Assembly (NCBI GenBank): GCA_017307505.1
Contig: JAFKEE010000023.1
Location: 1-64,000 of the forward strand
Reading direction: 5' to 3'
DNA from: Acidobacteriota bacterium
Lineage (GTDB): Bacteria > Acidobacteriota > Terriglobia > Bryobacterales > Bryobacteraceae
DNA: 64,000 bases
Part shown: in pieces, positions 5,061 to 64,000 of the stretch
Numbering within the stretch: position 1 is the first letter of the stretch
Layout of the letters: the number at the start of each line of letters is the position of its first letter
Notes under the pieces: generated by a model
What the model was told of the DNA's origin: nothing
Database searches by the model: none
What the model saw: the letters and a program-made list of their open reading frames with translations, nothing else
Position numbers and translations under genes: made by a program

Positions 5061-5063
5061 GCT

Positions 5064-6899
5064 TCAATTGCCCGGCAACGTAATCGTAAATCGAGAGCCC
5101 GCGTTAGGAGCGCTCGCCACGGTGATCTGTCCCCCGTGTTGCTGGACGATCTCCTTCACCAGAGCCAACCCGATCCCGGTGCCTTCTTCGCTCCCCTTTT
5201 CGTCCCTTCCTAGACGATAGAACTTCTCGAAGATCCTCGCCTGCTCTCCTGGGGCGATCCCGTAGCCCTGGTCCGTGACCGAGATGTTAACTTCCCGGCC
5301 GTTCGCCTCGGCGCTGACTTTGACAACAGTGTTCTTAGGGCTGTATTTCACGCCATTCGTGATCAGGTTGTAGATCGCGAACGAAAGCAGGTCGGGGTCG
5401 GCGGAGACCTGGATTTTCGGGATTGCCGCTTCAATCGCGATGCGTTTACGGGCAGCGTAGAGGCGCCCTCGCTCAATCGTCTCTTCGCACAATGCCTGGA
5501 GATCGATCTCCGTGCGTTGGAGCGCGAGAGAGCCAGCCGCAATACGCTCGACGTTCAAGAACGTTTGAACCAAGTTCGTGAGCCGCTTCGACTCCTTATG
5601 GATTAGCCCGGCCATCTTGACCCGCTGCTCTTCCGGAAAGTCCTCCCCTGCGATCATCTCGCTCGATCCTTGAATTGCCGTGAGTGGAGTCTTGATTTCA
5701 TGTGCGATCGCCTGGACTCGGAACGCGTACTCTTTGCGCTTGGTCGTCTCGCGGGCCAGGATCTTGCTGAGCCAAGCGTACTCGCCGGCGCCGGCGACCG
5801 CGGACGCGACCAGACCCACGGCCGTAAATGACCCAAGAGGGAGGATGTGGCCGTAACGAATCGACACGAACCCGGCCGCAACGACCAAAACCCCGACGCC
5901 AGACAGCGCTGCGAATAGACGCGGCCCGCGCAGCCAGCGGATGGCGGCCACACAGAGCCCGACGAGCAGCAGGCTGCCTCCGAATTCTCCGACAACACCG
6001 GGAGGGACAATGAACGCCTGGTCCAGGATCGTGCGGATTACGTTGGCGTGGATCTCAACGCCACTCATGCCGATACCGCTGGAGAGCGGCGTGAACAGGC
6101 GGTCTCCGCTGCCTTGGGCGGTGACGCCGACAATCACAATCCTGTCGCGAAACCTCTCCGGGTTGACCGAGCCGTCCAGCAATGCACCGAAGCTCAAACG
6201 TGGGAACGCGCCTTCTGGACCGGCGTAGTTGATCAGCATGGAACGACCGTCGTCCTCCGTGGCCGGGATGCGGATCGGGCCGAGCGTCACGGCAGCTGTG
6301 GATTCGACTGGGCGATCCGATCCAGTCGCTAATCGTGCTGCTTCCAGGCCGAGGGCCCAGAATCGCTTCCCCGCACCCTGTTTGAGGAGCAGCACGGACC
6401 GTACGTCGCCGTCGGCATCGGGCGCCGCGTGGACGTGAGCCACGGACCGCCCCAACGCCAGTTCGGGCAGAGGCAAGATCCAGCGCGGATGGTCGCCCGC
6501 GTCGCTCTCAAGCGCCGCTCCCAAAACGACTGCCGGAACCCGATGGACGGCGCCTGTAAGCCTCGCGTCCTGCGTGGTGTCACCGGACTCGCTGAGTATC
6601 AGGTCCAGCACCAGCACCTTCGGGGCTCCTTGCGCGATGGCTTCAAGTCCTTCGGCAAGTCGGGCACGGTTTAGCGGAAGCGGTCCGTAACGCGCGGCAG
6701 TTCGGTCGTCGATGGCGACCAGGAGAACCTGCTGTAGCGCCTGGCTTGCCTGCACTGGGCGCATGCGCAGGATCAGGTCGTTCCACTCCGCGCTGACCTG
6801 CTGTATGAACCCATTCCAGATCAGGAAGGGGAGGCTAGCGAGTACGACGACCACGTAGAGCGATCGGATCAGCAGCGGATTGGCGGAGATGAGTTTCAT
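5064..6899 (-). CDS. CHASE2-domain sensor histidine kinase
   Basis: This is a membrane sensor kinase of 611 residues from the ATG at 6899, which has a GGGAAG ribosome site; a longer frame to 7013 lacks support. It has an N-terminal membrane helix, a periplasmic CHASE2 domain (VLLVAIDDRTAARYGPLPL, VVLGAALE, VIVGVTAQGSGDRLFTPL) and three closely spaced membrane helices. The cytoplasmic part carries HisKA (AIAHEIKTPLTAIQG) and HATPase_c (NLITNGVKYSP, DQGYGIAPGE, GTGIGLALVKEIVQQHGG). It is cotranscribed with the sigma-54 regulator behind it. The signal is unknown; the neighbours suggest metal or envelope redox stress. Confidence 0.92.
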   Translation of the reverse strand: MKLISANPLLIRSLYVVVVLASLPFLIWNGFIQQVSAEWNDLILRMRPVQASQALQQVLLVAIDDRTAARYGPLPLNRARLAEGLEAIAQGAPKVLVLDLILSESGDTTQDARLTGAVHRVPAVVLGAALESDAGDHPRWILPLPELALGRSVAHVHAAPDADGDVRSVLLLKQGAGKRFWALGLEAARLATGSDRPVESTAAVTLGPIRIPATEDDGRSMLINYAGPEGAFPRLSFGALLDGSVNPERFRDRIVIVGVTAQGSGDRLFTPLSSGIGMSGVEIHANVIRTILDQAFIVPPGVVGEFGGSLLLVGLCVAAIRWLRGPRLFAALSGVGVLVVAAGFVSIRYGHILPLGSFTAVGLVASAVAGAGEYAWLSKILARETTKRKEYAFRVQAIAHEIKTPLTAIQGSSEMIAGEDFPEEQRVKMAGLIHKESKRLTNLVQTFLNVERIAAGSLALQRTEIDLQALCEETIERGRLYAARKRIAIEAAIPKIQVSADPDLLSFAIYNLITNGVKYSPKNTVVKVSAEANGREVNISVTDQGYGIAPGEQARIFEKFYRLGRDEKGSEEGTGIGLALVKEIVQQHGGQITVASAPNAGSRFTITLPGN

Positions 6900-45666: not shown

Positions 45667-45855
45667 ATGCCCGTAATGCTGATCCCGCTCTCGGAAGAAA
45701 TGAAGGAGACGATCCTGGACGAACATCCGCAAGGCCTTTGGGTCGTGTTGGAAGAGGAATCTCGACAGGGCCACGTTCACGACGACGTGCCACTGGTGGG
45801 ACATCCCACGACCGTTGAGCTTCAAGCCCCGATTCGCCGCTTTGCGCCCCGATGA
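45667..45855 (+). CDS. Small hypothetical protein
   Basis: A 62-codon frame begins with ATG 45667 after AAGGAGAGG. The sequence (MLIPLSEEMKETILDEHPQG, LWVVLEEESRQGHVHDD) looks like a soluble small protein. It follows the J-domain-like gene by 16 bp and overlaps the end of the ThiF gene by 34 bp on the other strand. The function is unknown. Confidence 0.45.
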   Translation: MPVMLIPLSEEMKETILDEHPQGLWVVLEEESRQGHVHDDVPLVGHPTTVELQAPIRRFAPR

Positions 45856-46610
45856 CGCATTCTTCGCCACAGGGCTGGGCTCACGGGAACCGGAACGGCC
45901 CGCGGCGCCGCCACGCTCACAAATCCGCCGTGGTGCTCAATGCGCCCGTGTCGAAACAATCGGGTCAATAGAGCAAGAGCTTGTGTTGCCAGCACCTGAT
46001 TGACGAAGGGCTCCTGCCGTTCCAATGCCTCGACCGCACTACAGCTTGGCTCAGTTTCGTCCTCCAAGTCGGTATTCACGATCTCCGGGAATAATTCAGC
46101 GGCCGTTCGGAGGCGGTTCGCGGAACGGCGATTGCGGCCGTTCAGTGGCTGGCCAAGCACGAACTGACCACCGTCGGCTGTGTTACCAAGATCGAGCCAG
46201 TAACTGACCCGGCTCCGCAGCCCTTCCACTTTCTTGCTGATCAGCCGTCGCGCCGCGCGCGTATCGACACACCCGACGACGATGTCCACGTTGCCCAGGT
46301 CAGTGGTGTTCGCGAGATGCTCAGGGACGGCAGTCCAATGCACACCCCAGAACAGGTTCAGGCGACTCACCGTCACGACGGCTTTGTTGATGCCGATCTC
46401 CGATGCGCAAAACGGCTGGCGGACGGTGTTCGTTGGCGAGATAGCGTCCCCGTCCATGATGGATACGGCCAGTCCGCCGGGATGACCGGAGACGATCATC
46501 GATTGGTGCAGATAGGGCAACCCCGCCGCGATCGCGCTTCCGGAACCGCCGCAACCGACGACCAACACGCGGACGGGCCGGTGGAGGAGATCTTGGCTCA
46601 GTTCGTGCAT
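45822..46610 (-). CDS. PRTRC system ThiF-family (E1-like) protein
   Basis: This 262-residue protein has a ThiF/E1 adenylation fold: VRVLVVGCGGSGSAIAAGL (nucleotide loop), VSIMDGDAISPTNTVRQPF (the D..N..RQ active-site set), IGINKA and DIVVGCVDTRAARRLI. ATG 46610 has a GAGGGGG site; a GTG at 46625 overlaps the previous stop. PRTRC cassettes of plasmids and integrative elements contain ThiF with proteins A-F and a ParB relative. It is the last gene of the run B-ThiF here. Substrate and partner are not known. Confidence 0.85.
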   Translation of the reverse strand: MHELSQDLLHRPVRVLVVGCGGSGSAIAAGLPYLHQSMIVSGHPGGLAVSIMDGDAISPTNTVRQPFCASEIGINKAVVTVSRLNLFWGVHWTAVPEHLANTTDLGNVDIVVGCVDTRAARRLISKKVEGLRSRVSYWLDLGNTADGGQFVLGQPLNGRNRRSANRLRTAAELFPEIVNTDLEDETEPSCSAVEALERQEPFVNQVLATQALALLTRLFRHGRIEHHGGFVSVAAPRAVPVPVSPALWRRMRHRGAKRRIGA

Positions 46611-46621
46611 GACACCCCCTC

Positions 46622-47332
46622 TCACCGATTGCGCTGGATGAACTGCGCAAGCGTCTCGCCTGCTGGCTGGAGCGATTCTGTCGGGAAACGTTGGTGTCCC
46701 CCTTTAAGGGCTTCCAGTGTTTGGAAGTAGCCCCGCTTTGCGGCCAGGAGTTTCTTTACCCCTGTCTGGTGCGTGAACTCGCTCTGAAAGAACGCCTGTT
46801 CCCAAGCGCCGAGCGAAGCAACGCCGCCGGCTTCCGGCGCGCGCATGCTCCCCTGGCAGACGACGCCGGAGTCCCCGTCGGTGTTCCAGTACGGCGCGAT
46901 CATCAACGGTGTGTCCTCGCTCGGCCGCTGGTTCTCCCGCAGAGCGCGGACCGACAACTCGGCCCCCGCAACTTTCCAGACCAATGGGGGCTGGGAGAAC
47001 ATCTCCCCACTCAGGCCCGTCGGGGCCTCACTGTTGGGCCGAAAGTACATTCGCCTCACGGCGCGTGGAGTCCACCACACCGACAGGTCGCCAGTCCAGG
47101 CCAGCACACTCGCCGGAAGCACCTCGGCCGGAGCGTCCGTACAGAGGCCCTGAGCCAGCCTCCGGATGAACTCGGTTGTCAGATCACGCGCTTCGCCGAG
47201 AGCCACGCCGCCGTGGGGCGATGGTTTCGCTTCATGCCAGGTTACGAAGGCACGCCCGCGCCCTTCGTAGAAGAGCAGAGCACCCTTGAGAGTGAGCGGC
47301 TCGCTGCTACCGATCGCAACATAGGGTTTCAT
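46622..47332 (-). CDS. PRTRC system protein B
   Basis: This 236-residue protein matches PRTRC B in length, composition and context. Key segments are ALLFYEGRGRAFVTWHEA, LPASVLAWTGDLSVWWTPRAVRRMYF, LVWKVAGAELSVRAL and MIAPYWNTDGDSGVVCQGSMR. A function has not been shown; the family is typical of plasmid-like elements. The stop overlaps a possible GTG start of the ThiF gene. Confidence 0.8.
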   Translation of the reverse strand: MKPYVAIGSSEPLTLKGALLFYEGRGRAFVTWHEAKPSPHGGVALGEARDLTTEFIRRLAQGLCTDAPAEVLPASVLAWTGDLSVWWTPRAVRRMYFRPNSEAPTGLSGEMFSQPPLVWKVAGAELSVRALRENQRPSEDTPLMIAPYWNTDGDSGVVCQGSMRAPEAGGVASLGAWEQAFFQSEFTHQTGVKKLLAAKRGYFQTLEALKGGHQRFPTESLQPAGETLAQFIQRNR

Positions 47333-47342
47333 GGTGCCTCCG

Positions 47343-48452
47343 TCATTCGTTGCCGCCGCGCCGGTTCCCGGGCATCAGCGAAATCAACTCCGAGGCCAGC
47401 GTCAAGGTTCGACAGAGGGTCGCTAGACAATCAAACGCTGAGGCGACGCTGGCAACGCGTTTCCCCTCAAATGGAATGATGAGATTGGGTTCAGGCGTCA
47501 CCTCAAGCATTCTCTGCGCCTCCTCATCGAAGGCTCCCTCAATCGCGTCTCGCTCTTCGAAGACGGCCACCAACGCTGGCACGGGCTCCCCGCAGTCCAT
47601 GAGGCTCTCACGCTGCTCGTCTGAGACAAGCGGCCGCTCAGCGCTTCGAGATGCGCGCTCCAATTCTTGGGCTTTCCGCACCAGAGCTTGCACCTGCCGG
47701 CTACGGCAACCGTCGAGGACCGGCTCCAGCGCCCGAGATCCGAGCGGTCGCCGGCGGGCACTCTCCGGAACGTCTGCGTCCACGTTGGGAAGTTCCATCT
47801 GCTCCGCTTCTGGATCTCCTTCGTACCACTCGCGGATGCGGTCCAATCGATCGAGGGCATCCCGGTAGTCGTACACCCGAATCCAACGGTTCAACGCACC
47901 AAGAAACAGATGAAGGAACGTGGCGGACAAACGGGGGTGCACCTGGTCCAGTAAGCCGAGAGTTGCACCCAGAACGACATACCCGGCCGAGTCCGGCTCG
48001 ATTGTCAGGAACACTGTCGCGAGGTTCTCCTCGCAAGGCTCCGAACGATACGAGAAGCGATCCAGAGAGGTCGACAACACCACATCGGCGAAGAACTGCT
48101 GACGGATCTGCTCGCGGCCGTTCGAATCGAGCCAGCGCTCCAGACCTTGATGGAGGAATGTCAGGGGATCGCCCTGCGACGACCCCCAGTCCTCGCCAGA
48201 GAGAACGCCCGCCTCCATCAGATTCAGTGCCAACTGCGCCGCCGCCCGCTCTCCCTGGATGATTCGGTACTCTGCCGGAACAGGTTTTCGGTCGACGAAC
48301 TCTAGCTTTGGAATTGTGAAACCCGCCCCGGGCGGCATCAGAGCGGATGGAGCCAACCGGGCGGAGCGGCGAGGCGTGCTCGCCGCCGGTCGCTCAGTGA
48401 CGCGTGGAGTGCGGCGTGCAGCAGGGAGGATGCGATTTGCCAGTCGGGGCAT
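47343..48452 (-). CDS. PRTRC system protein F-like
   Basis: This 369-residue protein has a basic, Pro-rich N-terminus (residues 1-45) and a helical body with LFLGALNRWIRVYDYRDALDRLDRIREWYEG, followed by the acidic stretch DPEAEQMELPNVDADVPESA. Length and order (between C/E and B) fit PRTRC F. The start region overlaps another small frame at 48338-48586, so an internal start is possible. Confidence 0.7.
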   Translation of the reverse strand: MPRLANRILPAARRTPRVTERPAASTPRRSARLAPSALMPPGAGFTIPKLEFVDRKPVPAEYRIIQGERAAAQLALNLMEAGVLSGEDWGSSQGDPLTFLHQGLERWLDSNGREQIRQQFFADVVLSTSLDRFSYRSEPCEENLATVFLTIEPDSAGYVVLGATLGLLDQVHPRLSATFLHLFLGALNRWIRVYDYRDALDRLDRIREWYEGDPEAEQMELPNVDADVPESARRRPLGSRALEPVLDGCRSRQVQALVRKAQELERASRSAERPLVSDEQRESLMDCGEPVPALVAVFEERDAIEGAFDEEAQRMLEVTPEPNLIIPFEGKRVASVASAFDCLATLCRTLTLASELISLMPGNRRGGNE

Positions 48453-48586
48453 GCGACGAACCTCGCTAAGGCTGGATTCAGCGACGTCTGTTGACCTTCG
48501 GCGAGTTGCAGAAGATCTCGGCGCGCGTCTCGCGCCGCGAAGAACTGATGGAGCCTTTCAGGCGCAGCTCGCTTCGACCGGCGCAT
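48338..48586 (-). CDS. Possible small protein between PRTRC C and F
   Basis: An 82-codon frame begins 4 bp after the PRTRC C gene and overlaps the N-terminal codons of the F gene. The sequence is helical (RLHQFFAARDARRDLLQLAEGQ, WQIASSLLHAALHASLSDRRRARL). Position in a tight operon supports it. The 115-bp overlap with the F frame argues against it unless F starts internally. Confidence 0.4.
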   Translation of the reverse strand: MRRSKRAAPERLHQFFAARDARRDLLQLAEGQQTSLNPALARFVACPDWQIASSLLHAALHASLSDRRRARLAAPPGWLHPL

Positions 48587-48589
48587 GGG

Positions 48590-48799
48590 TTACCCCTTAC
48601 TACCTATTGCGCGCTCGAAGGTGTAGCGCATCTTGTCGCCGACGGCTTCCGGGCCGTTGACGACGGCGGTCGCCAACTCTGGATACTGTGCCGCGTACAG
48701 CGCTTTGACTTCATCAACCGGCATGTTTGGGTTGGGATCCGGGAGTCGAATCCCGTGGAACTGGAACAGCCGGGTCATCTTGGTGATCGTAAGGGGCAT
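48590..48799 (-). CDS. PRTRC system protein C
   Basis: A 69-residue protein with the recognisable PRTRC C pattern: MTRLFQFHGIRLPDPNPNMPVDEVKALYAAQYPELATAVVNGPE and YTFERAIGSKG at the end. It resembles small ubiquitin-like proteins in size and in its Lys-Gly end. This could matter next to a ThiF/E1 enzyme, but the ubiquitin-like role is an inference. Confidence 0.85.
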   Translation of the reverse strand: MPLTITKMTRLFQFHGIRLPDPNPNMPVDEVKALYAAQYPELATAVVNGPEAVGDKMRYTFERAIGSKG

Positions 48800-48805
48800 G
48801 TTTCG

Positions 48806-49276
48806 TTAGTCTCCTTCCTTGTTGGCGTCGGAGGCTGGAGCGTCGAAGAGGCTGAGCGTCTGTGCCGCAGGCGGTTCGGGCTTCACTTCCGCCTCTGCTG
48901 GCTTGGTGACCGGATCGGCCTTCTTGCCGCCGTTGCCGACCGTCTTCTGCTTCTTCTTGGCTTCTTCGCGGGCAACCCGCTCGGCCTCTGCAAGTTCCCT
49001 CTCGACGGCCGAGAGATTCGAATAAAGCCCGACCTGGGCGACCACAAATGAGGCTACCTGGGCAACGAGTTCGTTATCGAGTTCGGTGGCGGTACCGCAC
49101 GCCGATAACGGCGTAGTCAGCGCCTGGTTCTCGCCTTCCTTAACCTGGCGCGGGCAGATGTTGACCTGCAAACGGTCGCCTTCCTCGAGCTTCGAGATCG
49201 TGATGAGCACTGCCCGTTGAGCCAGCAAGGGCAGCAATTGCGTAAACAAACCGGGTGCTTGAGTTGTGTCAGTCAT
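48806..49276 (-). CDS. PRTRC system protein E
   Basis: This 156-residue protein begins FTQLLPLLAQRAVLITISKLEEGDRLQVNICPRQVKEGENQAL, the PRTRC E signature. A helical stretch follows (ERELAEAERVAREEAKKKQK) and a Lys/Pro-rich tail ending SLFDAPASDANKEGD. It ends 6 bp before the C gene on the same strand. Confidence 0.8.
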   Translation of the reverse strand: MTDTTQAPGLFTQLLPLLAQRAVLITISKLEEGDRLQVNICPRQVKEGENQALTTPLSACGTATELDNELVAQVASFVVAQVGLYSNLSAVERELAEAERVAREEAKKKQKTVGNGGKKADPVTKPAEAEVKPEPPAAQTLSLFDAPASDANKEGD

Positions 49277-49804: not shown

Positions 49805-49990
49805 CTAGCAGCCGGCGCAGGAACGGTCGGAGTGCTCGCTGAGTTCAGCGATCGCGCTACGTGCCGCCGCGACGTGCGACAGCAGGCCCACGACGGCTAC
49901 CCTCTTTTCAGCCGACAGTGTTCGGGAAAGGACCTCTTCGAGCGTCCCCTCAAAGCCTTCCGCGAGTGCGACCACGAACCCGGCGCTCAT
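49805..49990 (-). CDS. Small hypothetical protein with C-terminal CxxC
   Basis: This 61-residue protein has its ATG overlapping the stop of the upstream gene (ATGA). The sequence (VVALAEGFEGTLEEVLSRTLSAEKRVAVVGLLSHVAAARSAIAELSE) is two helices and ends SCAGC. Not recognised. Confidence 0.55.
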   Translation of the reverse strand: MSAGFVVALAEGFEGTLEEVLSRTLSAEKRVAVVGLLSHVAAARSAIAELSEHSDRSCAGC

Positions 49991-51003
49991 GCATCCTCCT
50001 CGTCGAACCGGAACTTCCGGCTGCCGGACTTGGTGAGCATGGTGTCGAGTTGGGAAGCCAGACCCTCCATGCCTGCCTGTACCCGAGTGCGGAGTTCGCC
50101 AGTCGAGCGCAGGTCGTCGGCCTCGACACCCTGGAGCAGAGTCCGGGCCTCGTTCACGAGCGACTGAAGCTCCGCGTCATCGGTGACGTTGCGGAACTCG
50201 AAATTGGCTAGGAACTCGACCAAGTTCGAGACGGTCGTTTCCTTGAAACGCACGGGCTTCCCGTCGGCGCCCACCTTCAGCCGCTCCGCCATGTGCTGAA
50301 CGAGTTTCGCCATCGTCTCGCGCAGTACCTGCTGGATTTCCGACGACGCTTCGGCCATGCGTTGCGCCGCCTTCTCGCGTTCCTGTTGCCAGACTTCCTG
50401 GGAGATGCCCTTGAGCTGATCGGGAACGCCGAAGCTGACGTACTGCCACGAGAAGCCGAACTCGCGCTCGACGTCGCTCGCCGGCGGGTAGTCGGCCGGA
50501 TTGTAGAGACCCCGCAAGCGCTTCGCCGCATCCTGACACAGGTCCGGGTAGGCCGCGAGGAACGCCTTGACCAGTTCTTGCCGCTGTTCGGCGAACTGGC
50601 GCAGCTTCTGCTCGACGGCTTCGATGGCGGCGATCGGCAGCAGGTGGATTCCCACCTCGAACGGCAGGCAGATGTTGTAGAGAAACCGCCGGATCTCGCC
50701 GTCGAACCGGCCAATCGCCTTCAGTTCGGCGGAATCGAGTAGGTGCTTCGAGACGCGCAGAAGGTCTTTGTCGGCATCGGCCTCAATTTGGGAAGTGGAA
50801 ACCTTCCGGGTATTGCCCATCGTCGACAGGCGGACCTTGATGCAGACGGTCTTCCGGGCGAGATCGACGCCGGGATCGTGGATGGGTACGGCCGGGGTCG
50901 GAGCCGGCGGGTCTCCGCCCGCGCTGTTGCCTGTCGGCATAACGGGGACCGGTAGGGTGAGCACCGCGCCGGCAGACGCAAAGAGACTGCCTTGTGTGGC
51001 CAT
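49987..51003 (-). CDS. DUF3150-like element protein
   Basis: This 338-residue soluble protein starts at ATG 51003; an earlier start at 51045 is possible. After a Pro-rich N-terminus come a strand region (VCIKVRLSTMGNTRKVSTSQIEADADKDLLRVSKHLLD) and long helices with LKAIGRFDGEIRRFLYNICLPFEVGIHLLP. FSWQYVSFGVPDQLKGI follows. This layout resembles DUF3150 proteins of phages and conjugative elements that accompany AAA+ ATPases, but the match is from memory and only moderate. Confidence 0.5.
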   Translation of the reverse strand: MATQGSLFASAGAVLTLPVPVMPTGNSAGGDPPAPTPAVPIHDPGVDLARKTVCIKVRLSTMGNTRKVSTSQIEADADKDLLRVSKHLLDSAELKAIGRFDGEIRRFLYNICLPFEVGIHLLPIAAIEAVEQKLRQFAEQRQELVKAFLAAYPDLCQDAAKRLRGLYNPADYPPASDVEREFGFSWQYVSFGVPDQLKGISQEVWQQEREKAAQRMAEASSEIQQVLRETMAKLVQHMAERLKVGADGKPVRFKETTVSNLVEFLANFEFRNVTDDAELQSLVNEARTLLQGVEADDLRSTGELRTRVQAGMEGLASQLDTMLTKSGSRKFRFDEEDA

Positions 51004-51037
51004 AGAAGACTCCTGGTTGAAAGTGAGACGGGGATGG

Positions 51038-51613
51038 CTAGCCAAGAACTGGTGAGCCGAGAACGGGGAAGCCGGTGATCTGAGTCAGACCGGTATGGTC
51101 GATGTGGACTTCCACTGATTGGGCCGCGAAGTCATCCATTGAGTAGCGGGCAGTGTACAGACGAAGCACCTGGTTGGTTGACGAGACCAGCGGATAGTGA
51201 CTGCGCCGCCTTGCGTTGTAGCGACCGAGGACGGCGAAGTCCAGGTGGGCTTGAACGGCGCGCCACAGGCTCTCAGGGAGTTCCCGTTCCGTGTAGCCCG
51301 AAAACAGCCCGGCGGTCGTTTCGGGGTGCCCCTCTCTCAGTCTTCGGAGCAACTCAAGAACCGGGGGAGCCTGCTCCATCGGTTCGCCACCGCTGATTGT
51401 GAGCCCTTCTATCCGGTGCTCGCGGCTTACCTTCGCGAACCATTCGAGGATCTCCGAAACGTGGTGGAGCCGGGAGCCCCGAAGCGGATCGTGCGTATCC
51501 GGGTTCCAGCAACCCGGGCAACCCAGTGAACACCCCTGGACCCAGATCACCGCTCGCGCACCGGGGCCGTTCACCGTGCTGCATTCCATTAAAGCGTGAA
51601 CGCGTAGCTGCAT
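51038..51613 (-). CDS. Radical SAM protein, NrdG/activase-like
   Basis: This 191-residue protein begins with the cluster motif CSLGCPGC (Cx3Cx2C) inside GARAVIWVQGCSLGCPGCWNPDTHD. It also has LTISGGEPMEQAPPVLELLRRL, as in NrdG and pyruvate-formate-lyase activases. It ends in a strand-rich tail with VEVHIDHTGLTQITGFPV. A GAGGGGGTG site supports ATG 51613. No glycyl-radical enzyme is encoded nearby. It is in tight order with DUF2997, Ycf35 and AAA+ genes, so the target may be one of these proteins. Confidence 0.8.
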   Translation of the reverse strand: MQLRVHALMECSTVNGPGARAVIWVQGCSLGCPGCWNPDTHDPLRGSRLHHVSEILEWFAKVSREHRIEGLTISGGEPMEQAPPVLELLRRLREGHPETTAGLFSGYTERELPESLWRAVQAHLDFAVLGRYNARRRSHYPLVSSTNQVLRLYTARYSMDDFAAQSVEVHIDHTGLTQITGFPVLGSPVLG

Positions 51614-51619
51614 CGGGGT

Positions 51620-51820
51620 TCACCCCCTCGTCGAGTTGTGAACCACGCGGTTTTCGGTGGCGGGAACGTGATATTCGCGCTTCTTGCGGTCAACGATGAG
51701 CGTGTCCTTGCCGCGTAGCGCTTCGGCGACATCGCCGCAGCCTTTGCCGTGAAAGCCGTTGAGGTCGACGGAACTGTTGCCCTGTTCGTCGATCTCGACG
51801 GTGATGGTCTTCTCGCCCAT
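51620..51820 (-). CDS. DUF2997 protein
   Basis: A 66-residue protein (ATG 51820 with GAGGAGG) that matches DUF2997: TITVEIDEQGNSSVDLNGFHGKGCGDVAEAL. The tail DTLIVDRKKREYHVPATENR is basic. DUF2997 and DUF1257 genes normally occur together, as here. The function is unknown. Confidence 0.8.
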   Translation of the reverse strand: MGEKTITVEIDEQGNSSVDLNGFHGKGCGDVAEALRGKDTLIVDRKKREYHVPATENRVVHNSTRG

Positions 51821-51831
51821 AGTCAACCTCC

Positions 51832-52245
51832 TCAGCGGACCGCGAACCGCAGTTGCACCTTTTTGCCGGCAGGCGTCTCAACCACCTGCCGCCCCAGGAA
51901 CCGGTAGCCCTTCGACTTGGCGACCGCCATCGTCTGGCGCTCCTTGTACGTCTGGGCGACGCGCCCCAGCCAGGCGTCATCGAACCCGATGCCGCGGTCG
52001 TACTCGCTGATGAGCGCGCGGTATACGCCGTTTGCGTCGCGGGCGAAGCCGATGTCGTTGCTCGCCGAGTCAAGTTGCCGACGGCGAATGACGACCTGCG
52101 CCCTCTCGGGCCGCTCGTCGCCGAGGTAGCCATAGAGACTCAATCCATCGCCTGAGACTTCCGGGTTGTAGCCAAGATCACGGAGCGCCTCGATAAGGAA
52201 GCGTTCATCGGAGAAAACCGTACGTAGTTCTTCATACTTACTCAT
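51832..52245 (-). CDS. DUF1257/Ycf35-like protein
   Basis: This 137-residue protein is of the Ycf35 family: FLIEALRDLGYNPEV, LYGYLGDERPERAQVVIRRRQL, SASNDIGFARDANGVYRALISEYDRG and GYRFLGRQVVETPAGKKVQLRF. Ycf35 is conserved in cyanobacteria and algal plastids without a settled function; here it is in a mobile element. It lies 13 bp behind the AAA+ gene. Confidence 0.8.
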   Translation of the reverse strand: MSKYEELRTVFSDERFLIEALRDLGYNPEVSGDGLSLYGYLGDERPERAQVVIRRRQLDSASNDIGFARDANGVYRALISEYDRGIGFDDAWLGRVAQTYKERQTMAVAKSKGYRFLGRQVVETPAGKKVQLRFAVR

Positions 52246-52257
52246 GGCGATCCTCCA

Positions 52258-53760
52258 TCAGTCACCGATCTCCCGGAAGGAACGCCTCCCAGATCCAACC
52301 GACAGGGACTCGCGTTCGGCTGAGTACACACCCGGCTGGGACGCACTCAGGAATCTCCCGGAGGCCTGCCGCCGCAGCGCGTCGATCTGGTCCGCTGCCG
52401 AGCGCGAAACGGGCACGACGTACGCAGCCGACTCCCGCAGCGAGAGTTTCAGCCGCCACGCCTTCCGGCAGCACTCCTTGATCTCGGCGCCGGTCCAGCC
52501 ATCGTCGTCCGGGCGCTCGCCGGTCAACTGCCAGCGATGTTCGTAGATGTTCCAGATTGCCTCACGCTCCTCGGCTGTCGGCAGGTCAAAGAAGAACGTG
52601 CCCAGTGTGAAACGCCTGCGGAGTTCCGATGGCAGGCTCGTGATGGAATTGCACGTGGCGATCCAGAGGCTCCGGCCTTGAGAGATGGCATCGACCACTT
52701 GAAGCGCCGCCCGCAACCGTTCGCCAGAGCCGCCGACCAGCGAACTCTGCATGGCTGCCAGGTCAAACGCCACCGTTGGAATTCCTGCCGTCGCTCCCGC
52801 GGCCTTCGCCACGGCGGACTTCGCCGCGCCGGGCGGCCCGATGAAGATCACGCCGTCCGCGCCGCGGTCCTGCATCCAACTGAGCATCGTGCCGGTCATT
52901 TCGGTCTTGACGCCCGAAGTGTCCGTTCCACTGCCGGCGAACGCCTTCTCGATCTCGTCCACGAAGACGATCACGCGCGGCGCCTCCTCGCCGTGGATCA
53001 CGGCGTCGAGGAAGCGTTTGATGTTTTCGCAGCCACCGATCTGATCGAACGTCTCGCCGCCCCGCCAGATGGTCAGACCTGGTGTCTGCTCCACCGCTTG
53101 GCGCTTGCGATCCCAGAGCCGGCCGAAGTCCAGGCCGCTTTTCGAAAGCGACATGGCCAGCACCTGTTCCGCTGGGAACGCCGCCAGGCCCACTAGCGCA
53201 TCGACCGCCTTCTCGACGGTCTCCTCGGTGGGGGCCGGAAGTTCGGCCGCTTCGAAGGTCTCGCGCACGAGGCCGGCGAGTTCATCCGCCGAGGGCAGAG
53301 GCTCGTCGATGACCATGACGTCGCTCTGCAGTTCCTGCGGCAACGCGGCGCCGGGTGTCGAGATCAGCACGAGCATCTGGCCGTTTGCCTTGAAAACCTC
53401 GCGCAGATTCCAGATGCCCTGCAGGACGTCCACCTGCTCCCAGATCCGTTGCGGGTTCAGGAAGAAGAGAACAGCGTCCCTGGTGATCTTCTGCGCCGCC
53501 GCCAGGGCGTCTGCGGGGCCGAGGGGTCCAGCGTTCTCCCCGACCAGCCTGCCTGCCGCTGCCTTACCAGGCTCGTTGCGACCCGTTAGCCCATTGAGAA
53601 TGTCCCAGACCACTACTGGGATCTCGCTCTTGCCGTTCAGGCTGGCCATCACTTGTGCAATGGCGCTGGCCGGGTCCGCTGTACGAACGGCAACGAGAGG
53701 GGTGCCCGCCCGGCGGGCCGCTTTGAACACACTACGGAACTCCTCGGTGGAACAAGACAT
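52258..53760 (-). CDS. AAA+ ATPase with Walker B before Walker A (permuted)
   Basis: This is a 500-residue protein. The N-terminal half (1-230) is a helical/Rossmann-like region similar to the first part of Ycf46-type ATPases (VVWDILNGLTG, AVLFFLNP, LVLISTPGAALP). The AAA+ half starts at 241 with GGCENIKRFLDAVI. Walker B VIVFVDEIEKAF lies at 263-274 with TGTMLSWMQDRGADGVIFIG behind it, and only then comes Walker A GPPGAAKS at 308-315, followed by FDLAAMQSSLVGGSGERLR. Sensor 1 IATCNS is at 367-372 and RRRFTLGTFFFDLP at 391-404. In the usual order Walker A precedes Walker B. A GAGGAG site supports the start. Confidence 0.85.
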   Translation of the reverse strand: MSCSTEEFRSVFKAARRAGTPLVAVRTADPASAIAQVMASLNGKSEIPVVVWDILNGLTGRNEPGKAAAGRLVGENAGPLGPADALAAAQKITRDAVLFFLNPQRIWEQVDVLQGIWNLREVFKANGQMLVLISTPGAALPQELQSDVMVIDEPLPSADELAGLVRETFEAAELPAPTEETVEKAVDALVGLAAFPAEQVLAMSLSKSGLDFGRLWDRKRQAVEQTPGLTIWRGGETFDQIGGCENIKRFLDAVIHGEEAPRVIVFVDEIEKAFAGSGTDTSGVKTEMTGTMLSWMQDRGADGVIFIGPPGAAKSAVAKAAGATAGIPTVAFDLAAMQSSLVGGSGERLRAALQVVDAISQGRSLWIATCNSITSLPSELRRRFTLGTFFFDLPTAEEREAIWNIYEHRWQLTGERPDDDGWTGAEIKECCRKAWRLKLSLRESAAYVVPVSRSAADQIDALRRQASGRFLSASQPGVYSAERESLSVGSGRRSFREIGD

Positions 53761-53789: not shown

Positions 53790-54323
53790 TCAGACAAAGA
53801 CGGCGGCCAGGTAGATGACCGTGTTAAAGACGATGTGGGCGATTACCGGGGGTACCGTTGAGCCGGAATCGAGCCGCAACCAGCCGTAGAGCATGCCCGT
53901 GCCGAAGATGGCTAAGAGTTGTGGCCCGGTGATCCCCGACTTCGCCGCGTGCGCCAGGGCGAAGAGCACCGCGACGACGAACACGGTTGCAGCACCAGAG
54001 CGAACCTTCAGACGAGCTAGTAGCGGCCCGATCACCCAGAAGAGGTAACCACGAAAGATCAGCTCCTCCGCCAGGGGCCCGAGCGTGATCGCCATCCAGA
54101 CGTCCGTGAACATCGGATTGGCGCTCTTGTCATAGCCACCGAACAGCCACGCGATCAGGATGCCAGCTCCGGCGCCAGCGGCAGCCGCCCGGACCATGGA
54201 ACGCCGGCTCACGGGAACCCAATGGACGCACTCGAAGCCGTGAGAGGTCAGTTTCCCCCTGACACTCCACATCAGCCAGAGCAACCCGAGTGTGAAGGCG
54301 ATTCCTGCGAATTGCATCGGCAA
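53790..54323 (-). CDS. CPBP (CAAX/Rce1-like) intramembrane protease
   Basis: This 177-residue membrane protein of about five helices carries the family motifs GPLAEELIFRGYLFW (EExxxR), LFALAHAA and PPVIAHIVFNTVIY (HxxxN). A TTG at 54323 has GGGGGAG before it; the ATG at 54317 is the alternative. CPBP proteins process bacteriocins or membrane proteins, and many act in immunity to peptides. Here the gene lies inside the element backbone. Confidence 0.88.
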   Translation of the reverse strand: MPMQFAGIAFTLGLLWLMWSVRGKLTSHGFECVHWVPVSRRSMVRAAAAGAGAGILIAWLFGGYDKSANPMFTDVWMAITLGPLAEELIFRGYLFWVIGPLLARLKVRSGAATVFVVAVLFALAHAAKSGITGPQLLAIFGTGMLYGWLRLDSGSTVPPVIAHIVFNTVIYLAAVFV

Positions 54324-57319: not shown

Positions 57320-58384
57320 ATGTCAATGGAAACCTCACCCTCCACCGCATACAAAGCGCTTCTTGCCGACCTGAAGCGACGGATCCAGGAGGCTCAGGTC
57401 CGGGCGGGCCTGGCAGTCAACCGGGAACTCGTGCTGCTGTACTGGTCGATCGGCCGCGAGATCCTCGTTCGTCAGGAACGGGAAGGTTGGGGAGCCAAGG
57501 TGATCGATTCGCTGGCGCGCGATCTGCACCAGTCGTTTCCCGAGATGAAGGGGCTGTCGCCCCGTAACCTCAAGTACATGAGGGCCTTAGCGGACGCCTG
57601 GCCCGACGCGCAAATTGTGCAACAGCTTGTTGCACAAATTCCGTGGGGACACAACGTGCGGCTGCTCGACTATGTGAAGTCGCCCGTGGAGCGTCGTTGG
57701 TACGCCGAGCAGACCATCGCGAATGGCTGGAGCCGTAACGTATTGATTCTTCAAATCGAATCCAGGCTCTATGATCGGCAGGGCAAAGCCATCTCGAACT
57801 TCCAGTCCGCTCTTCCCCAGCCCCAATCGGACCTGGCACAGCAAATCCTCAAGGATCCTTACAACTTTGACTTCCTCACGCTCGAAAAGGACGCCCGCGA
57901 ACGCGATATCGAGCGCGGTCTTCTCGACCACTTGCGGCAATTCCTCCTGGAACTCGGTTCGGGCTTTGCCTTTGTCGGAAGCCAGGTGCCGCTGGAGGTC
58001 GGCGGCGAGGACTATCGCCTCGACCTGCTCTTCTACCACCTCAAGCTCAGATCGTACATTGTCGCGGAAGTAAAATCGGGTACCTTCCGCCCCGAGTACG
58101 CAGGCAAGATGAACTTCTACCTGTCCGCGGTCGATGATCTCCTGCGTCATCCCAACGATCAGCCGAGCATCGGCCTGATCCTCTGCCGGTCCAAGGATGG
58201 CATTGTGGTGGAGTACGCACTCCGCGACATCGGGAAGCCGATGGGAATCGCGGAGTTCAGACTAACCGAAAGTCTCCCCGATAGCTTGAAGTCCACGCTG
58301 CCCTCCATCGAGGAACTGGAGTCTGAACTCGACGCGCGAACTCAGGATGAGGGGACATCCCACGAACGTTCGTCCGGCACCTGA
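57320..58384 (+). CDS. DUF1016 (YhcG-type) PD-(D/E)xK nuclease
   Basis: This 354-residue protein is of the YhcG family. The N-terminal DNA-binding domain has VRAGLAVNRELVLLYWSIGREILVRQE and LARDLHQSFPEMKGLSPRNLKYMRALADAW. The nuclease domain has YNFDFLTLEKDARERDIERGLLDHLRQFLLELG, then YRLDLLFYHLKLRSYIVAEVKSG with the catalytic D...E-x-K. It is full length. It stands alone on the plus strand and its end overlaps the gene at 58342-58983 by 43 bp. Such nucleases are common in defence and mobile regions. Confidence 0.92.
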   Translation: MSMETSPSTAYKALLADLKRRIQEAQVRAGLAVNRELVLLYWSIGREILVRQEREGWGAKVIDSLARDLHQSFPEMKGLSPRNLKYMRALADAWPDAQIVQQLVAQIPWGHNVRLLDYVKSPVERRWYAEQTIANGWSRNVLILQIESRLYDRQGKAISNFQSALPQPQSDLAQQILKDPYNFDFLTLEKDARERDIERGLLDHLRQFLLELGSGFAFVGSQVPLEVGGEDYRLDLLFYHLKLRSYIVAEVKSGTFRPEYAGKMNFYLSAVDDLLRHPNDQPSIGLILCRSKDGIVVEYALRDIGKPMGIAEFRLTESLPDSLKSTLPSIEELESELDARTQDEGTSHERSSGT

Positions 58385-59679: not shown

Positions 59680-61194
59680 CAATGCCGCATAGTTTTTGGG
59701 CGGCCGCTGACACAATATGGCAGAGAGTTGTTTTAACTCGTCTCGGATGGCGGTATCCTGGGTAACGTCGTGACCAACACTCTCTCTCCCTCCTAAGAAC
59801 TTCGTGGAGGCCTTTGAAAGAGGCGTTCTCTCCCACTTCCAGCAGTTGTTGCCAGCTCATTTCGTGGAGCAGGCCTATGCCGACGCCGGTCTCCGGCATC
59901 ACAACTCCTTGTACGCACCTGTGGTCGTATTGTGGCTGCTGGTGCTGCAGCGGATCGAGGGAGGGGCTCCCTTGGGAGCGGCTGTTTTGGAAATGCTGCG
60001 TGGTCTGCCGACGGAATTCTGGCCTCGCCCCTGCAAACGAATGCGTGACTGGCGACAGCATGGCAAAGCGCCGTCCAGTCATACCGGCGCCTATAATCAG
60101 GCTCGGCAGGCACTGCCGCTGGCGGTGGTGCAGAAATGCTGTGACCGTATCTTTCAGGAGCTGATTTCTCAGTTGAAGCCCTCGTCGAGCGGATCGTCGC
60201 GGCGAGCCTTTCTGATTGACGGATCGTCAATGAGAATGGCTCATTCGCCCGAATTGTGCCGTCAGTATCCAGCCGGAACAAATCAACATGGCGGAGGGCA
60301 CTGGCCGGTACTGAAGATTGTGGTGGCTCATGATCTTTACACCGGATTGGCCATGCGTCCGGAGTGGGGACCGATGTATGGGCCCGGTGCAGTGAGTGAG
60401 CAACGGCTGTTAGAGTTGGCGATCGAACGCTTGCCGGCTGGAGCGATCGTGATAGGGGATTCCAATTTTGGTGTGTTCTCGGTGGGCTGGGCTGCCGCAC
60501 AGCGGCAGTATCCGGTACTGGTGAGGCTAACGGTTCCGCGCGCGCAAAGACTGGCCAGGGGCGCACTGCGCGACGGCACCGACCGACCAGTGGTGTGGAA
60601 GCCCAGTGCTTATGAACGGACGGCGCATCCTGAGTTGCCCCCGGATGCGGAGCTCGCAGGACGATTGATAGTGCGTCAGATGCAGCCGGGCAATGGCGGC
60701 AAGCCGTTTCTACTGGCGTTGTTCACGACCTTGCCTGACGCGCAGAAAGAAATTCTGGAACTGTACAGCCAGCGATGGAAGGTGGAAACGGATTTACGCA
60801 CGCTGAAGAGCAACTTGAAACTCGACCAATTCACGTGCCTCACTGCGGATATGGTGGCGAAGGAGATCGAGATGGCGATGGCGGCGTACAATCTCGTTCG
60901 CGCGGTCATATGCCAGGCGTCGGAGCAGAGCGGAGTTCCACCGCGCGGATACAGCTTTACGCAGGTGCAACGCATCGTGCAAACGTTCGGTCCGCTACTG
61001 GAGGCCGCCGAAGACGCGGGTGAGGCGAAGAAGGTCTTCGATCAGATGATGCGTTACATTCAGCAAGCCAAATTGCCGCTTCACCGTAAACGCCCAACAT
61101 ACCCCAGAGCGGTCTGGCAACGGGGCGCCTACTTCCCGAGTCGGCAGAGCAAGAAATGATCCCAATGGACCCGGCACAAAACTATGCGGCATTA
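59680..61194 (+). mobile_element. IS4-family-like insertion sequence, 1515 bp
   Basis: The ends are 17-bp terminal inverted repeats, CAATGCCGCATAGTTTT at 59680-59696 and, reversed, TAATGCCGCATAGTTTT at 61178-61194. The element is flanked by the 10-bp direct repeat GGCTTCAGCC (59670-59679 and 61195-61204). It carries one transposase gene. The intact ends and exact duplication show a recent jump. Confidence 0.92.
59804..61159 (+). CDS. IS4-family-like DDE transposase
   Basis: This 451-residue transposase starts at GTG 59804. The catalytic residues are visible as D in FLIDGSSMRM, D in IVIGDSNFGVF and E in YSQRWKVETDLRTLK, which fits the Y-x2-R-x3-E-x6-K signature of IS4 elements. The C-terminus is basic. 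No frameshift is seen, so the element should be active. Confidence 0.9.
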   Translation: MEAFERGVLSHFQQLLPAHFVEQAYADAGLRHHNSLYAPVVVLWLLVLQRIEGGAPLGAAVLEMLRGLPTEFWPRPCKRMRDWRQHGKAPSSHTGAYNQARQALPLAVVQKCCDRIFQELISQLKPSSSGSSRRAFLIDGSSMRMAHSPELCRQYPAGTNQHGGGHWPVLKIVVAHDLYTGLAMRPEWGPMYGPGAVSEQRLLELAIERLPAGAIVIGDSNFGVFSVGWAAAQRQYPVLVRLTVPRAQRLARGALRDGTDRPVVWKPSAYERTAHPELPPDAELAGRLIVRQMQPGNGGKPFLLALFTTLPDAQKEILELYSQRWKVETDLRTLKSNLKLDQFTCLTADMVAKEIEMAMAAYNLVRAVICQASEQSGVPPRGYSFTQVQRIVQTFGPLLEAAEDAGEAKKVFDQMMRYIQQAKLPLHRKRPTYPRAVWQRGAYFPSRQSKK

Positions 61195-62037: not shown

Positions 62038-64000
62038 ATGTGGTCAGACAACGAGGCAAAAGAGGACCTTCTGGGCTTTGAGTACCTTGCCGATGGCATC
62101 ATTTCCATAGTCAAGAACGAGAGCCTGTTGCCGGCCACGCTCGGAGTATTCGGTGACTGGGGTGGTGGAAAATCGACTCTGATCGAGATCGTCAAAAACC
62201 GGCTCACTACTCCGGAAGAAGAGGAAGCCGGAGTGGTCGTTCTGTCCTTCAATGGGTGGCTCTTCGAAGGATATGAAGGAGCCAAAACAGCCTTAATGGG
62301 GACGATCCTCGAGGAGCTGCTGGAGCACAAGACGTTCGCCAAAAAGGCGACTGACGAGGGGAGGCGACTCCTGAAAAGCCTCATGCGCCGCGTGGACTGG
62401 ATGAAGGTCACCATGGGCATTGCGAAGCTCGCCGGTGCTGTATTCAGCCATGGCCAGTTGACGCCATTGTTACTGATGAGCGGCGGCACGGATCTCACGG
62501 TCGCCGCTAATGATGTTTATGAAAAAGCGAAGGAAATCGACCCCAAAGAACTTCTGAAGAAGGAAGAGAAGGCGGAGAAGAAGGACGAGCCGGAGACACG
62601 GAAGCAGATCCAGAATTTCCGGAAGGACTTCGAGAAGATGCTCAAGGAATCCAGCATCAAACGCCTCGTCATAATCATTGACGATCTCGACCGGTGCTCT
62701 CCGGACACAATCATTCCGACCCTTGAGGCCATCAAGCTGTTTCTGTTTGTGTCCAACACAGCCTTCATCATCGGCGCTGACGAGGAATTGGTGCGCTATG
62801 CAGTCCGCCGCCGGTTCCCGGAGCTTCCTGGAGATCGCCGCGAAGTCGGACGCGACTACCTGGAGAAGCTCATTCAGTTCCCGATCCGGATTCCCGCGCT
62901 TGGGCGCGCCGAAGTGGAGAGCTATTTGGGCCTCCTGTTCGTTACGGCCTGCGATTTGCTCACAGCGGAGCAGAAGGATGCTGTTCGTAAGGCGGCCAGG
63001 GAGACGGGGATAGAATCGCTGACAACCGCATCGTTTAACGTCTCCGTCGCGCGTGATCTATTGAAACCGTGTCCTCCGGAACTGGAGACGGATCTGAGCA
63101 TGGTGGAGCGCATTACGCCGCTGCTGGGCACCATCTTGAACGGAAATCCGAGACAGTGTAAGCGGTTCCTCAACACGCTGCTGCTGCGACTGGAGATGGC
63201 CCGCTCCAAGAAGATTACGCTTCAGCCGAAGATTCTCGCAAAACTGATGCTGCTGGAATATTTTCGTGCGGAATCCTTTGGACGCCTTGCCGAGATTCAG
63301 TTCGCACAGGACGGGACACCGGCAGAGCTTGGCCAGATGGAGAAGGCGGTCCGCCAGATGAGCCAGCCGCCGGAAGAGGTGGAAGAGGATCAGCCGGCTC
63401 CCGCGCTGGAAATCCAGAAGAAGCCGCCTGTTAAGAAACCCAAGCCGCCAGAAAAGATCGACCTTTCTTCCGAGTTCACCCTCTGGATATCTGACCCGCG
63501 GATTCGCGAATGGCTATCTGTGGAACCGGCGTTGGCAGGAGAGGACCTGAGACCGTACTTCTTTTTCTCGCGTGACAACCTCGGATTGCTGGGCACTGCA
63601 GGGCAGCGACTTAGTCTTGCAGCGCGGCGCGTCTTAGATAAGATCAAGAGCGCCTGCGAAGCTGTCCGGGTTGCTGGCCTGAAGGAGTTAAAGGCCCTCG
63701 GGGAGGCCGATGCGAACGCGGTATTTGAAGCGCTCATAGAGCGGGCGAAGCGCGAGGAAGATCTCGGTTCCGAGAACGCATCGCTTAAGCCGATGATCGA
63801 TGCCGCGCAGGAGCGGCCGGTACTCCTGCCGCAGCTCATCGTCGCAGTCAAGAGCCTGCCGGAGAAGGTGCTTCCCGTCTGGGTGACCGTGAATGTCCTG
63901 AACGCCTGCAAGGGACATGCAGAGGCCGAGAAGGCGTTTCAGGAAATACTAACCTCCTGGTCAAAAAGCACCGCCAATCCATTACTCGCGAACGCTGCCA
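62038..64000 (+). CDS. KAP-family P-loop NTPase (possible QatA), cut by the window end
   Basis: The frame from ATG 62038 stays open to the end of the window (654 residues visible). It begins MWSDNEAKEDLLGFEYLADGI, then Walker A GDWGGGKS (residues 39-46), a hydrophobic insert at about 122-149 and a charged stretch (KEEKAEKKDEPE). Walker B LVIIIDDLDRCSP lies at about 210-222, followed by LEAIKLFLF, FIIGADEELVRYAV and LEKLIQFPIRIPAL. These are KAP hallmarks: a membrane-inserted segment between the Walker motifs and DDLDRC. QatA of the QatABCD antiphage system is a KAP NTPase of similar size and start. Whether QatB, QatC and QatD follow is beyond the window. Confidence 0.85.
   Translation, partial: MWSDNEAKEDLLGFEYLADGIISIVKNESLLPATLGVFGDWGGGKSTLIEIVKNRLTTPEEEEAGVVVLSFNGWLFEGYEGAKTALMGTILEELLEHKTFAKKATDEGRRLLKSLMRRVDWMKVTMGIAKLAGAVFSHGQLTPLLLMSGGTDLTVAANDVYEKAKEIDPKELLKKEEKAEKKDEPETRKQIQNFRKDFEKMLKESSIKRLVIIIDDLDRCSPDTIIPTLEAIKLFLFVSNTAFIIGADEELVRYAVRRRFPELPGDRREVGRDYLEKLIQFPIRIPALGRAEVESYLGLLFVTACDLLTAEQKDAVRKAARETGIESLTTASFNVSVARDLLKPCPPELETDLSMVERITPLLGTILNGNPRQCKRFLNTLLLRLEMARSKKITLQPKILAKLMLLEYFRAESFGRLAEIQFAQDGTPAELGQMEKAVRQMSQPPEEVEEDQPAPALEIQKKPPVKKPKPPEKIDLSSEFTLWISDPRIREWLSVEPALAGEDLRPYFFFSRDNLGLLGTAGQRLSLAARRVLDKIKSACEAVRVAGLKELKALGEADANAVFEALIERAKREEDLGSENASLKPMIDAAQERPVLLPQLIVAVKSLPEKVLPVWVTVNVLNACKGHAEAEKAFQEILTSWSKSTANPLLANAA

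Follow-up and report, generated by a model that had tools for sequence, protein, structure and literature searches.

A gene of the acidobacterial stretch analysed here (contig JAFKEE010000023.1, positions 1 to 64,000, referred to below as the window) encodes an AAA+ ATPase in which Walker B precedes Walker A. Taken together, our results make it likely that this protein belongs to a naturally permuted family of p97-type ATPases, that two adjacent blocks of its catalytic domain changed places once, and that it is a remodeller working with proteins of the DUF3150, Ycf35 and DUF2997 families, a role that we infer. The gene (52258..53760, minus strand) is a single open frame coding for a p97/Ycf46-like protein of 500 aa. 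Along the chain, the motifs come in the order Walker B (VIVFVDEIEK, residues 263-272), Walker A (GPPGAAKS, 308-315) and sensor 1 (IATCN, 367-371), as a preliminary description of this DNA had noted. By comparison with canonical relatives, block B (residues 261-300; 52861..52980, minus strand), made of strand beta-3 with Walker B and of alpha-3, has been exchanged with block A (residues 301-362; 52675..52860, minus strand), which comprises beta-1, Walker A, alpha-1, beta-2 and alpha-2. The GG..N.K.F segment ahead of the two blocks and the part running from sensor 1 onward (beta-4 with ATCN, residues 364-371; 52648..52671, minus strand) occupy their usual places, and the Ycf46-like relatives can be aligned on both sides of the swapped blocks, in keeping with the preliminary description. 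The N-terminal domain (residues 4-235; 53056..53751, minus strand), which pairs with p97 in VIA-align and has no P-loop, is read as a degenerate D1-like AAA domain without Walker A. In Pfam, the protein matches PF00004 at 6.7e-12. AAA_5 was not among its Pfam matches at E up to 1, nor was any GTPase family, the motifs G1-G5 themselves not being scored. With the NCBIfam model of the anti-phage ATPase IteA, it reached 26.3 bits only, for a cut-off of 510.

The block order was controlled independently using profiles of blocks A, B and C built from canonical-order proteins only and run on 95 distinct permuted open reading frames (ORFs). The block A profile matched all 95 ORFs (median independent E-value, i-E, of 7e-15), the block B profile 94 (2e-11) and the block C profile 94. 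B was located before A in the 94 ORFs matched by both profiles, none of them showing the usual AAA order of beta1/Walker A, beta2, beta3/Walker B and beta4/sensor 1, and the order B-A-C was found in 93 out of the 93 ORFs matched by all three. The sole ORF without a block B match (L080) carries a diverged yet recognisable block at that place. Solved p97-type (VCP-like) proteins were also matched out of order by a profile of the permuted family built from 80 of the 95 ORFs. For 5vc7, the whole-sequence E-value was 2e-32 and the match was split into three out-of-order pieces: profile positions 294-345 corresponded to positions 44-95 of the chain (the Walker A piece, strong alone with an i-E of 2e-7), positions 249-299 to 98-148 (i-E 3.2) and positions 354-409 to 144-200 (i-E 6.3). 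In the second AAA domain of 5vc7, the two weak pieces scored i-E values of 0.043 and 0.33.

A second Walker-B-like motif was searched between Walker A and sensor 1. It was reported in 1 of the 115 distinct permuted ORFs recognised by the procedure (6 of the 121 were not recognised), and the Walker B pattern of the canonical control was found in 119 of the 123 recognised ORFs, out of 157. Since the search was essentially empty in comparison with this control, the Walker B strand was moved and not duplicated, as first proposed. The single apparent second motif, in L109, was discarded because the search pattern had landed in the N-terminal domain.

The family was delineated through several searches seeded with its own members, and the resulting counts should thus not be taken as frequencies in nature. 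The first set contained 7 permuted and 11 canonical-order relatives, with a clean split between them. The best 80 of 230 relatives were then taken from a scan of viral contigs and the best 80 of 305 from a scan of species genomes. Block profiles assigned 106 ORFs to the B-A order and 83 to the A-B order in an intermediate set of 187 loci, the fragment locus L020 falling into neither. Two further viral-contig scans of 80 loci each, the first overlapping the earlier viral scan, brought the total to 362 loci. From these, 354 ordered ORFs were obtained using the same profiles, 190 with the B-A order (121 distinct) and 164 with the A-B order (157 distinct), and not one of the 354 displayed a mixed or duplicated order. 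Four of the 80 loci of the last viral scan yielded no ORF with both blocks.

The 190 permuted ORFs originate from viral contigs (163), species-genome contigs (14) and other sources (13), 7 being short fragments. The permuted order was found in all of the best 80 of 230 viral relatives and in 80 out of 80 loci of the next viral scan. It was found in 14 of the best 80 of 305 species-genome loci, among which 13 bear acidobacterial titles (Acidobacteria, Bryobacter, Bryobacterales, Sulfopaludibacter and similar) and one is a Myxococcales metagenome-assembled genome (MAG). When the phylum was sampled evenly, 3 of 396 genomes, including that of the window, gave matches at E <= 1e-60, four in total and all permuted; such rarity fits what is expected for a mobile gene. 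A search of 50,697 phage records with the permuted query gave a single match at E 1e-5, that of Tunturi_3, a phage of Tunturiibacter. The permuted member sits in the complete genome of this isolate; the genome and a podovirus-type particle are reported in PMC11924767. With a canonical query, 138 phage records were recovered at E 1e-3, that of Tunturi_3 being one of them, and the five other phages examined among these matches all exhibited the canonical order.

Two loci call for a separate comment. An Acidobacteria MAG contig of 123,707 bases (L119) and a viral contig of equal size (L229) carry an identical permuted ORF, so that part of the species-genome matches may be phage contigs within MAGs. 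In another locus (L017, positions 3757-5255 of G021), the permuted relative changes frame close to the C-terminus, and its Walker A reads GPPDAAKS; it is either a decaying copy or the product of a sequencing error.

The residues expected at an AAA+ active site are retained throughout the permuted family, which bears out the earlier remark that the motifs are intact. G308, K314, D268, E269 and K272 are each present in 95 of the 95 distinct permuted ORFs, and N371 as well as R383, which we take to be the arginine finger, in 94, the remaining ORF showing a gap at these positions. The ratio of non-synonymous to synonymous substitution rates (dN/dS) was calculated for seven pairs, each made of the window copy and one relative. 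Its values lay between 0.057 and 0.142 when all aligned codons were considered, with dS near saturation in five full-length pairs and about 0.3 for L006 and L007 (306 and 255 codons covered). Within each swapped block, dN/dS did not exceed 0.067 where it could be estimated, dS being saturated in block A of L109. The swapped blocks have the lowest dN/dS in 6 of the 7 pairs; the exception is L007, with 0.050 in block A and 0.049 in part C. Judged from these substitution rates, the permuted ATPase is under purifying selection.

We modelled the window ATPase with AlphaFold2 using an alignment of 79 permuted sequences. The model reached a mean predicted local distance difference test score (pLDDT) of 89.2 and a predicted template modelling score (pTM) of 0.80. 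Strands of the second domain were found at residues 263-267 (Walker B), 302-307 (ahead of Walker A), 329-332, 364-370 (sensor 1) and 388-390. Using VIA-align, residues 4..470 of the model could be paired with residues 208..763 of p97 (Z 18.4, root mean square deviation, rmsd, of 5.1, 402 residues aligned) and residues 226-474 with Vps4 (6bmf_B; Z 17.0, rmsd 3.0, 209 aligned). A canonical control model (pLDDT 84.1) was aligned to p97 with a Z of 28.8 and an rmsd of 5.8 over 477 residues. The permuted and canonical models align 198 and 251 residues, respectively, to the D2 domain of p97 (6g2v), and 202 and 256 to 4d82_B; this shortfall of about 53 residues is roughly as long as the moved block. 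With Foldseek, the whole model obtained low TM-scores against p97 and related proteins (about 0.3-0.5), which the flexibility between the two domains together with the rearrangement could explain. The model, predicted with confidence, thus suggests a p97-like two-domain fold for the permuted protein.

The place of the moved strand was further assessed by a mean-field coupling analysis on 117 permuted rows (effective number 106), scoring for every pair of strands the share of residue pairs above a Z of 2. Among strands adjacent in the usual 5-1-4-3-2 sheet, the shares were 0.107 for beta3-beta4, 0.061 for beta3-beta2, 0.062 for beta1-beta4 and 0.036 for beta1-beta5. Among non-adjacent strands, they were 0.018 for beta3-beta1, 0.020 for beta3-beta5 and 0 for both beta2-beta4 and beta2-beta5, two further non-adjacent pairs being given below. 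The pairs 262-361 (Z 6.6) and 263-360 (Z 6.1) rank among the 16 strongest couplings and connect the beginning of the moved strand with the C-terminal end of alpha-2, two positions that are neighbours along the chain in the canonical order. On the whole, and with some overlap between the two kinds of pairs, the covariation favours, short of proof, a normal position of the moved strand, flanked by beta-4 and beta-2.

Trees were built by aligning the blocks separately and joining them in one order for 115 of the 121 permuted and 155 of the 157 canonical proteins. In all three trees the permuted proteins form one clade with no canonical member inside, with supports of 0.91 for the core and 0.78 for the N-terminal domain (the full-length value is given below). 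Smaller trees (90 of 95 permuted proteins, 5 short ones being dropped, and 79 of 79 canonical ones) recovered the same clade with supports of 0.67, 0.93 and 0.83 for the full length, the core and the N-terminal domain, respectively. The N-terminal domain can be aligned across both order classes, and in the three trees the permuted clade lies among the canonical ones. The node joining it to a sister group of canonical phage proteins (around L122/L283-L307) has a support of 0.999-1.0. The three best matches in BFVD are phage proteins named ycf46. A single permuted clade among canonical-order phage relatives indicates that the swap probably happened once. Moreover, genes for DUF1257, DUF2997 and DUF3150 are present in 30 out of the 30 distinct loci of the sister group; on the simplest view, the cassette predates the swap.

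In the window, the ATPase gene belongs to a cassette carried by the minus strand. It is followed by genes encoding a Ycf35/DUF1257 protein of 137 aa (51832..52245; PF06868, E 2.4e-9), a DUF2997-like protein of 68 aa (51620..51826), a radical SAM protein of the NrdG/activase type of 191 aa (51038..51613; PF13353 at 6e-27, PF04055 at 2.7e-8) and a DUF3150 protein of 352 aa (49987..51045; PF11348, 1.5e-9). The 68-aa protein has no DUF2997 match in Pfam, and an iterated profile links it to plasmid genes annotated DUF2997. The radical SAM protein scores 90.4 bits against TIGR02491, below the cut-off of 126.1. We counted neighbours within 6 kb of the permuted ATPase in 120 loci, each ATPase being kept only once; some of these loci are truncated by a contig end or a short flank. 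DUF3150 was the most constant neighbour (107 of 120), followed by Ycf35/DUF1257 (95), DUF2997 (68) and radical SAM (19). The preliminary description had proposed Ycf35, DUF2997 and the radical SAM protein as a tightly linked set. This set needs to be amended: the radical SAM gene is a regular companion in the acidobacterial loci (10 of the 14 permuted species-genome loci) but not across the family, and DUF3150 has to be added. A gene for a CPBP/Rce1-like intramembrane protease (53790..54323, minus strand; PF02517, 2.7e-18) stands upstream of the ATPase and is a local neighbour only, being found in 7 of 106 permuted loci. Among the five canonical phages, DUF1257 and DUF2997 are located near the ATPase in four and both are missing in Catdawg; no DUF3150 match was detected in the ATPase regions of the five.

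The partner families were compared with known proteins using alignments of 36 of 93 distinct matches for DUF3150, 30 of 83 for DUF2997 and 26 of 92 for DUF1257. Against solved structures, the profiles gave no convincing relative, the best E-values being 0.18 for DUF3150 and 0.84 for DUF2997, with no hit at 1 for DUF1257. PHROGs held no family for the 36 DUF3150 proteins scanned, and we found no mention of DUF3150 in the open-access PubMed Central (PMC) literature. Searched with tblastn, the DUF3150 protein of the window matched 69 records and revealed DUF3150-like genes on proteobacterial plasmids. In three of four such plasmid regions (L199-L202) the gene order is AAA, DUF3150-like, vWA; in the fourth, from Simplicispira, the DUF3150-like gene is followed by vWA and the ATPase gene lies about 3.6 kb upstream. 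The plasmid ATPases match AAA_5 or AAA families weakly. In L200, the only region in which these proteins were scanned, the vWA protein is a DUF2201 metallopeptidase-vWA and the DUF3150-like protein has no Pfam match, so that the link rests on tblastn. The DUF3150-like plasmid genes perhaps encode an undescribed partner of MoxR-vWA-like systems. The finding of DUF3150 relatives beside two different AAA+ types suggests that DUF3150 is an adaptor or a substrate of AAA+ motors.

Several observations weigh against the reading of a once-swapped ATPase working with these partners. The full-length tree supports the permuted clade at only 0.69. The non-adjacent strand pairs beta4-beta5 and beta1-beta2 have coupling shares of 0.036 each, equal to that of the adjacent pair beta1-beta5, and the covariation was interpreted after the scores had been seen. 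When canonical couplings were carried over to the permuted set, the 30 best cross-block pairs had a mean Z of 0.12, a value reached in 645 of 2000 column shuffles; controls with the same tool were near zero as well (-0.03 for A x C, 0.28 within A), which makes this comparison uninformative. DUF1257 was not found near 25 and DUF2997 not near 52 of the 120 permuted genes, some loci being cut, and these two proteins may be optional partners. Finally, the best canonical match of the N-terminal domain falls in the sister group for 3 of 115 proteins only, and that of block B falls in the sister group for 35 and in a "far" group for 67. The best matches of block A (78 of 115) and of part C (115 of 115) lie in the sister group, which also has the highest mean score for block B despite the distribution of its best matches. 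On these sequence comparisons, an internal swap within one gene would be the simplest reading, although similarity does not settle the donor of the moved block.

Other explanations of the permuted order were considered. A sequencing, assembly or gene-model artefact, or a gene in decay, could produce an unusual order, and the relative split over two frames illustrates such a case; yet 121 distinct sequences have the order in common, drawn from viral contigs, MAGs and other genomes as well as from one phage isolate. Owing to these many separate occurrences and to the low dN/dS, we rejected this explanation as practically negligible, and the family is real, as the preliminary description had argued. 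It would also be conceivable that this Walker B is part of the N-terminal AAA domain and that the second domain lost its own, the protein having two AAA-like halves with Walker B between them. However, block B comes after GG..N.K.F, the segment with which the second domain begins in canonical relatives, and matches the canonical second-domain Walker B profile in 94 of 95 ORFs, and the model gives the N-terminal half its own strands and helices ahead of block B. Such a loss was rejected as very improbable. The permutation could instead be real in a domain that is no working ATPase, the protein acting as a nucleotide switch or scaffold with the moved Walker B away from the pocket. This would account for the atypical Walker A of many members, in which residue 313, just ahead of the lysine, varies (58 ORFs with Ala, 28 with Gly, 8 with Ser and 1 with Cys, out of 95), and for the residues that the permuted model fails to align to p97 D2 or Vps4. 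For MCM and MoxR ATPases, an alanine at this position is nothing unusual. Against an inactive domain stand the invariant or nearly invariant Walker B Asp/Glu, Walker A Lys, sensor-1 Asn and R383 position, and the covariation in favour of a normal place of the strand; as to the missing residues, they amount to about the loss expected if the aligner is sequential and skips the moved block. We regard this possibility as quite unlikely.

A different alternative concerns the function of the cassette, which might serve metal or Fe-S/radical maturation in a chelatase-like manner, the AAA+ protein driving cofactor insertion and not DUF3150 remodelling. The activase-type radical SAM gene of the window and of the other permuted loci mentioned above would fit this role, as would its presence beside 18 of 63 more distant canonical relatives. 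The DUF2997 alignment displays a GxxGxxC pattern whose second Gly and Cys are kept in 30 out of 30 aligned proteins, and in cyanobacteria DUF2997 and Ycf35 stand with the ferredoxin Fed7 (PMC4284462). Conversely, a search for radical SAM was negative for 101 of the 120 permuted loci, and the plasmid relatives of DUF3150 lie beside vWA and near an AAA ATPase, like the MoxR and metallopeptidase-vWA pair proposed as chaperone and co-chaperone in jumbo phages (PMC7824862). Such a maturation role appears rather unlikely, and remodelling of a DUF3150-containing complex is the reading we retain.

Next to the ATPase cassette, at 45825-49276 on the minus strand, lie the genes of a PRTRC cassette (ThiF, B, F, C and E) followed by one for SSB; ThiF, B, C and E score over their cut-offs and F below. 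PRTRC proteins like those of the window were found in 8 other loci (L016, L019, L108, L109, L111, L112, L113 and L120). Their presence beside the ATPase suggests that the cassette sits in a plasmid-like or integrative element and not in the core genome. A second permuted copy (L016), 75% identical, is located at 179131-180618 of the same 301 kb contig, about 127 kb from the window copy, with helicase, Gp157, CPBP, DUF1257, DUF2997, radical SAM, DUF3150 and SSB genes as neighbours; we conclude that the contig carries two related elements. A relative of the ATPase with the canonical order is encoded on another contig of this genome (L026, 66-67 kb). On the plus strand, the window further contains a YhcG-type PDDEXK nuclease gene (57320-58384), an IS4-family transposase gene (59804-61159) and, reaching the window end, a gene whose product, a KAP-type NTPase, resembles QatA from the anti-phage system Qat (62038-63999; 538.5 bits, cut-off 600). 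The remainder of a Qat locus may lie beyond.

The permuted ATPase shares with the Ycf46-like tandem AAA ATPases, such as those of Pseudomonas phage SM1 and Rhizobium phage L338C, a two-domain build, the N-terminal domain, homologous blocks and, often (4 of the 5 canonical phages), the DUF1257 and DUF2997 neighbours. It differs from those of the five phages by its motif order, Walker A preceding Walker B there, and by the DUF3150 gene, of which no match was detected in their regions. Its predicted fold is that of p97/Cdc48 and Vps4, of the classic AAA clade, from which it is set apart by the block order, an N-terminal domain without P-loop and a low identity (14-20% in alignments). MoxR AAA+ and metallopeptidase-vWA pairs of plasmids and jumbo phages resemble it through the DUF3150-like gene seen alongside in the plasmid regions, but the AAA type is another one there (weak AAA_5/AAA matches) and no DUF1257 or DUF2997 is annotated. 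No vWA family was detected with Pfam among the eight window proteins scanned, the other permuted loci not having been searched for vWA. Permuted P-loop proteins are known among GTPases: RsgA/YjeQ, RbgA/YlqF and YqeH have the motif order G4-G5-G1-G2-G3 and a role in ribosome assembly (PMC6912228). They too are P-loop NTPases with motifs in another order; there, however, the G domain is circularly permuted, whereas in the present AAA+ protein two internal blocks are swapped and the remainder is unmoved. We found no description of a permuted AAA+ domain in open-access PMC text.

These elements lead us to propose the following mechanism. A P-loop-less N-terminal AAA-like domain would be followed by an active AAA domain with swapped blocks, as in a p97-type tandem protein; ATPase activity and ring formation are what we infer for it. 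Once folded, the second domain would have its strands in the usual 5-1-4-3-2 arrangement, and both Walker B and sensor 1 would be located at the ATP. A single swap would have occurred, in a phage lineage whose canonical sisters had the genes for DUF1257, DUF2997 and DUF3150 next to that of the ATPase beforehand, possibly through tandem duplication of both blocks and loss of the outer copies, the frame being kept. Serving phages and plasmid-like elements, the resulting ring-shaped, ATP-driven remodeller would act on a complex made of DUF3150, Ycf35/DUF1257 and DUF2997. The swap might even be adaptive, tying the P-loop-less first domain directly to the Walker B strand so that this domain, or a bound partner such as DUF3150, gates ATP hydrolysis. 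We consider this unlikely; if true, the coupling path would be one absent from canonical AAA+ rings, and the family would be the first natural one with an AAA+ fold rewired inside the domain and kept under selection.

Few protein machines are as common or as well studied as those built on AAA+ domains, whose motif order is treated as fixed and assumed by annotation and motif searches. The block order and its conservation, the invariant catalytic residues, the purifying selection, the single clade and the cassette can all be read from the sequences themselves, and a large selected family with its central blocks exchanged suggests that the AAA+ core tolerates internal rearrangement while keeping its catalytic residues. 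The canonical sister group, found in the same gene cassette, lets the effect of the swap be compared directly. The family also draws attention to a little-characterised cassette of phages and plasmids (AAA+, DUF3150, Ycf35 and DUF2997), two members of which have cyanobacterial homologues. The permuted ATPases, a widespread family of phages and mobile elements that still appear to fold and work normally, thus constitute a natural experiment on the rewiring of a common machine.

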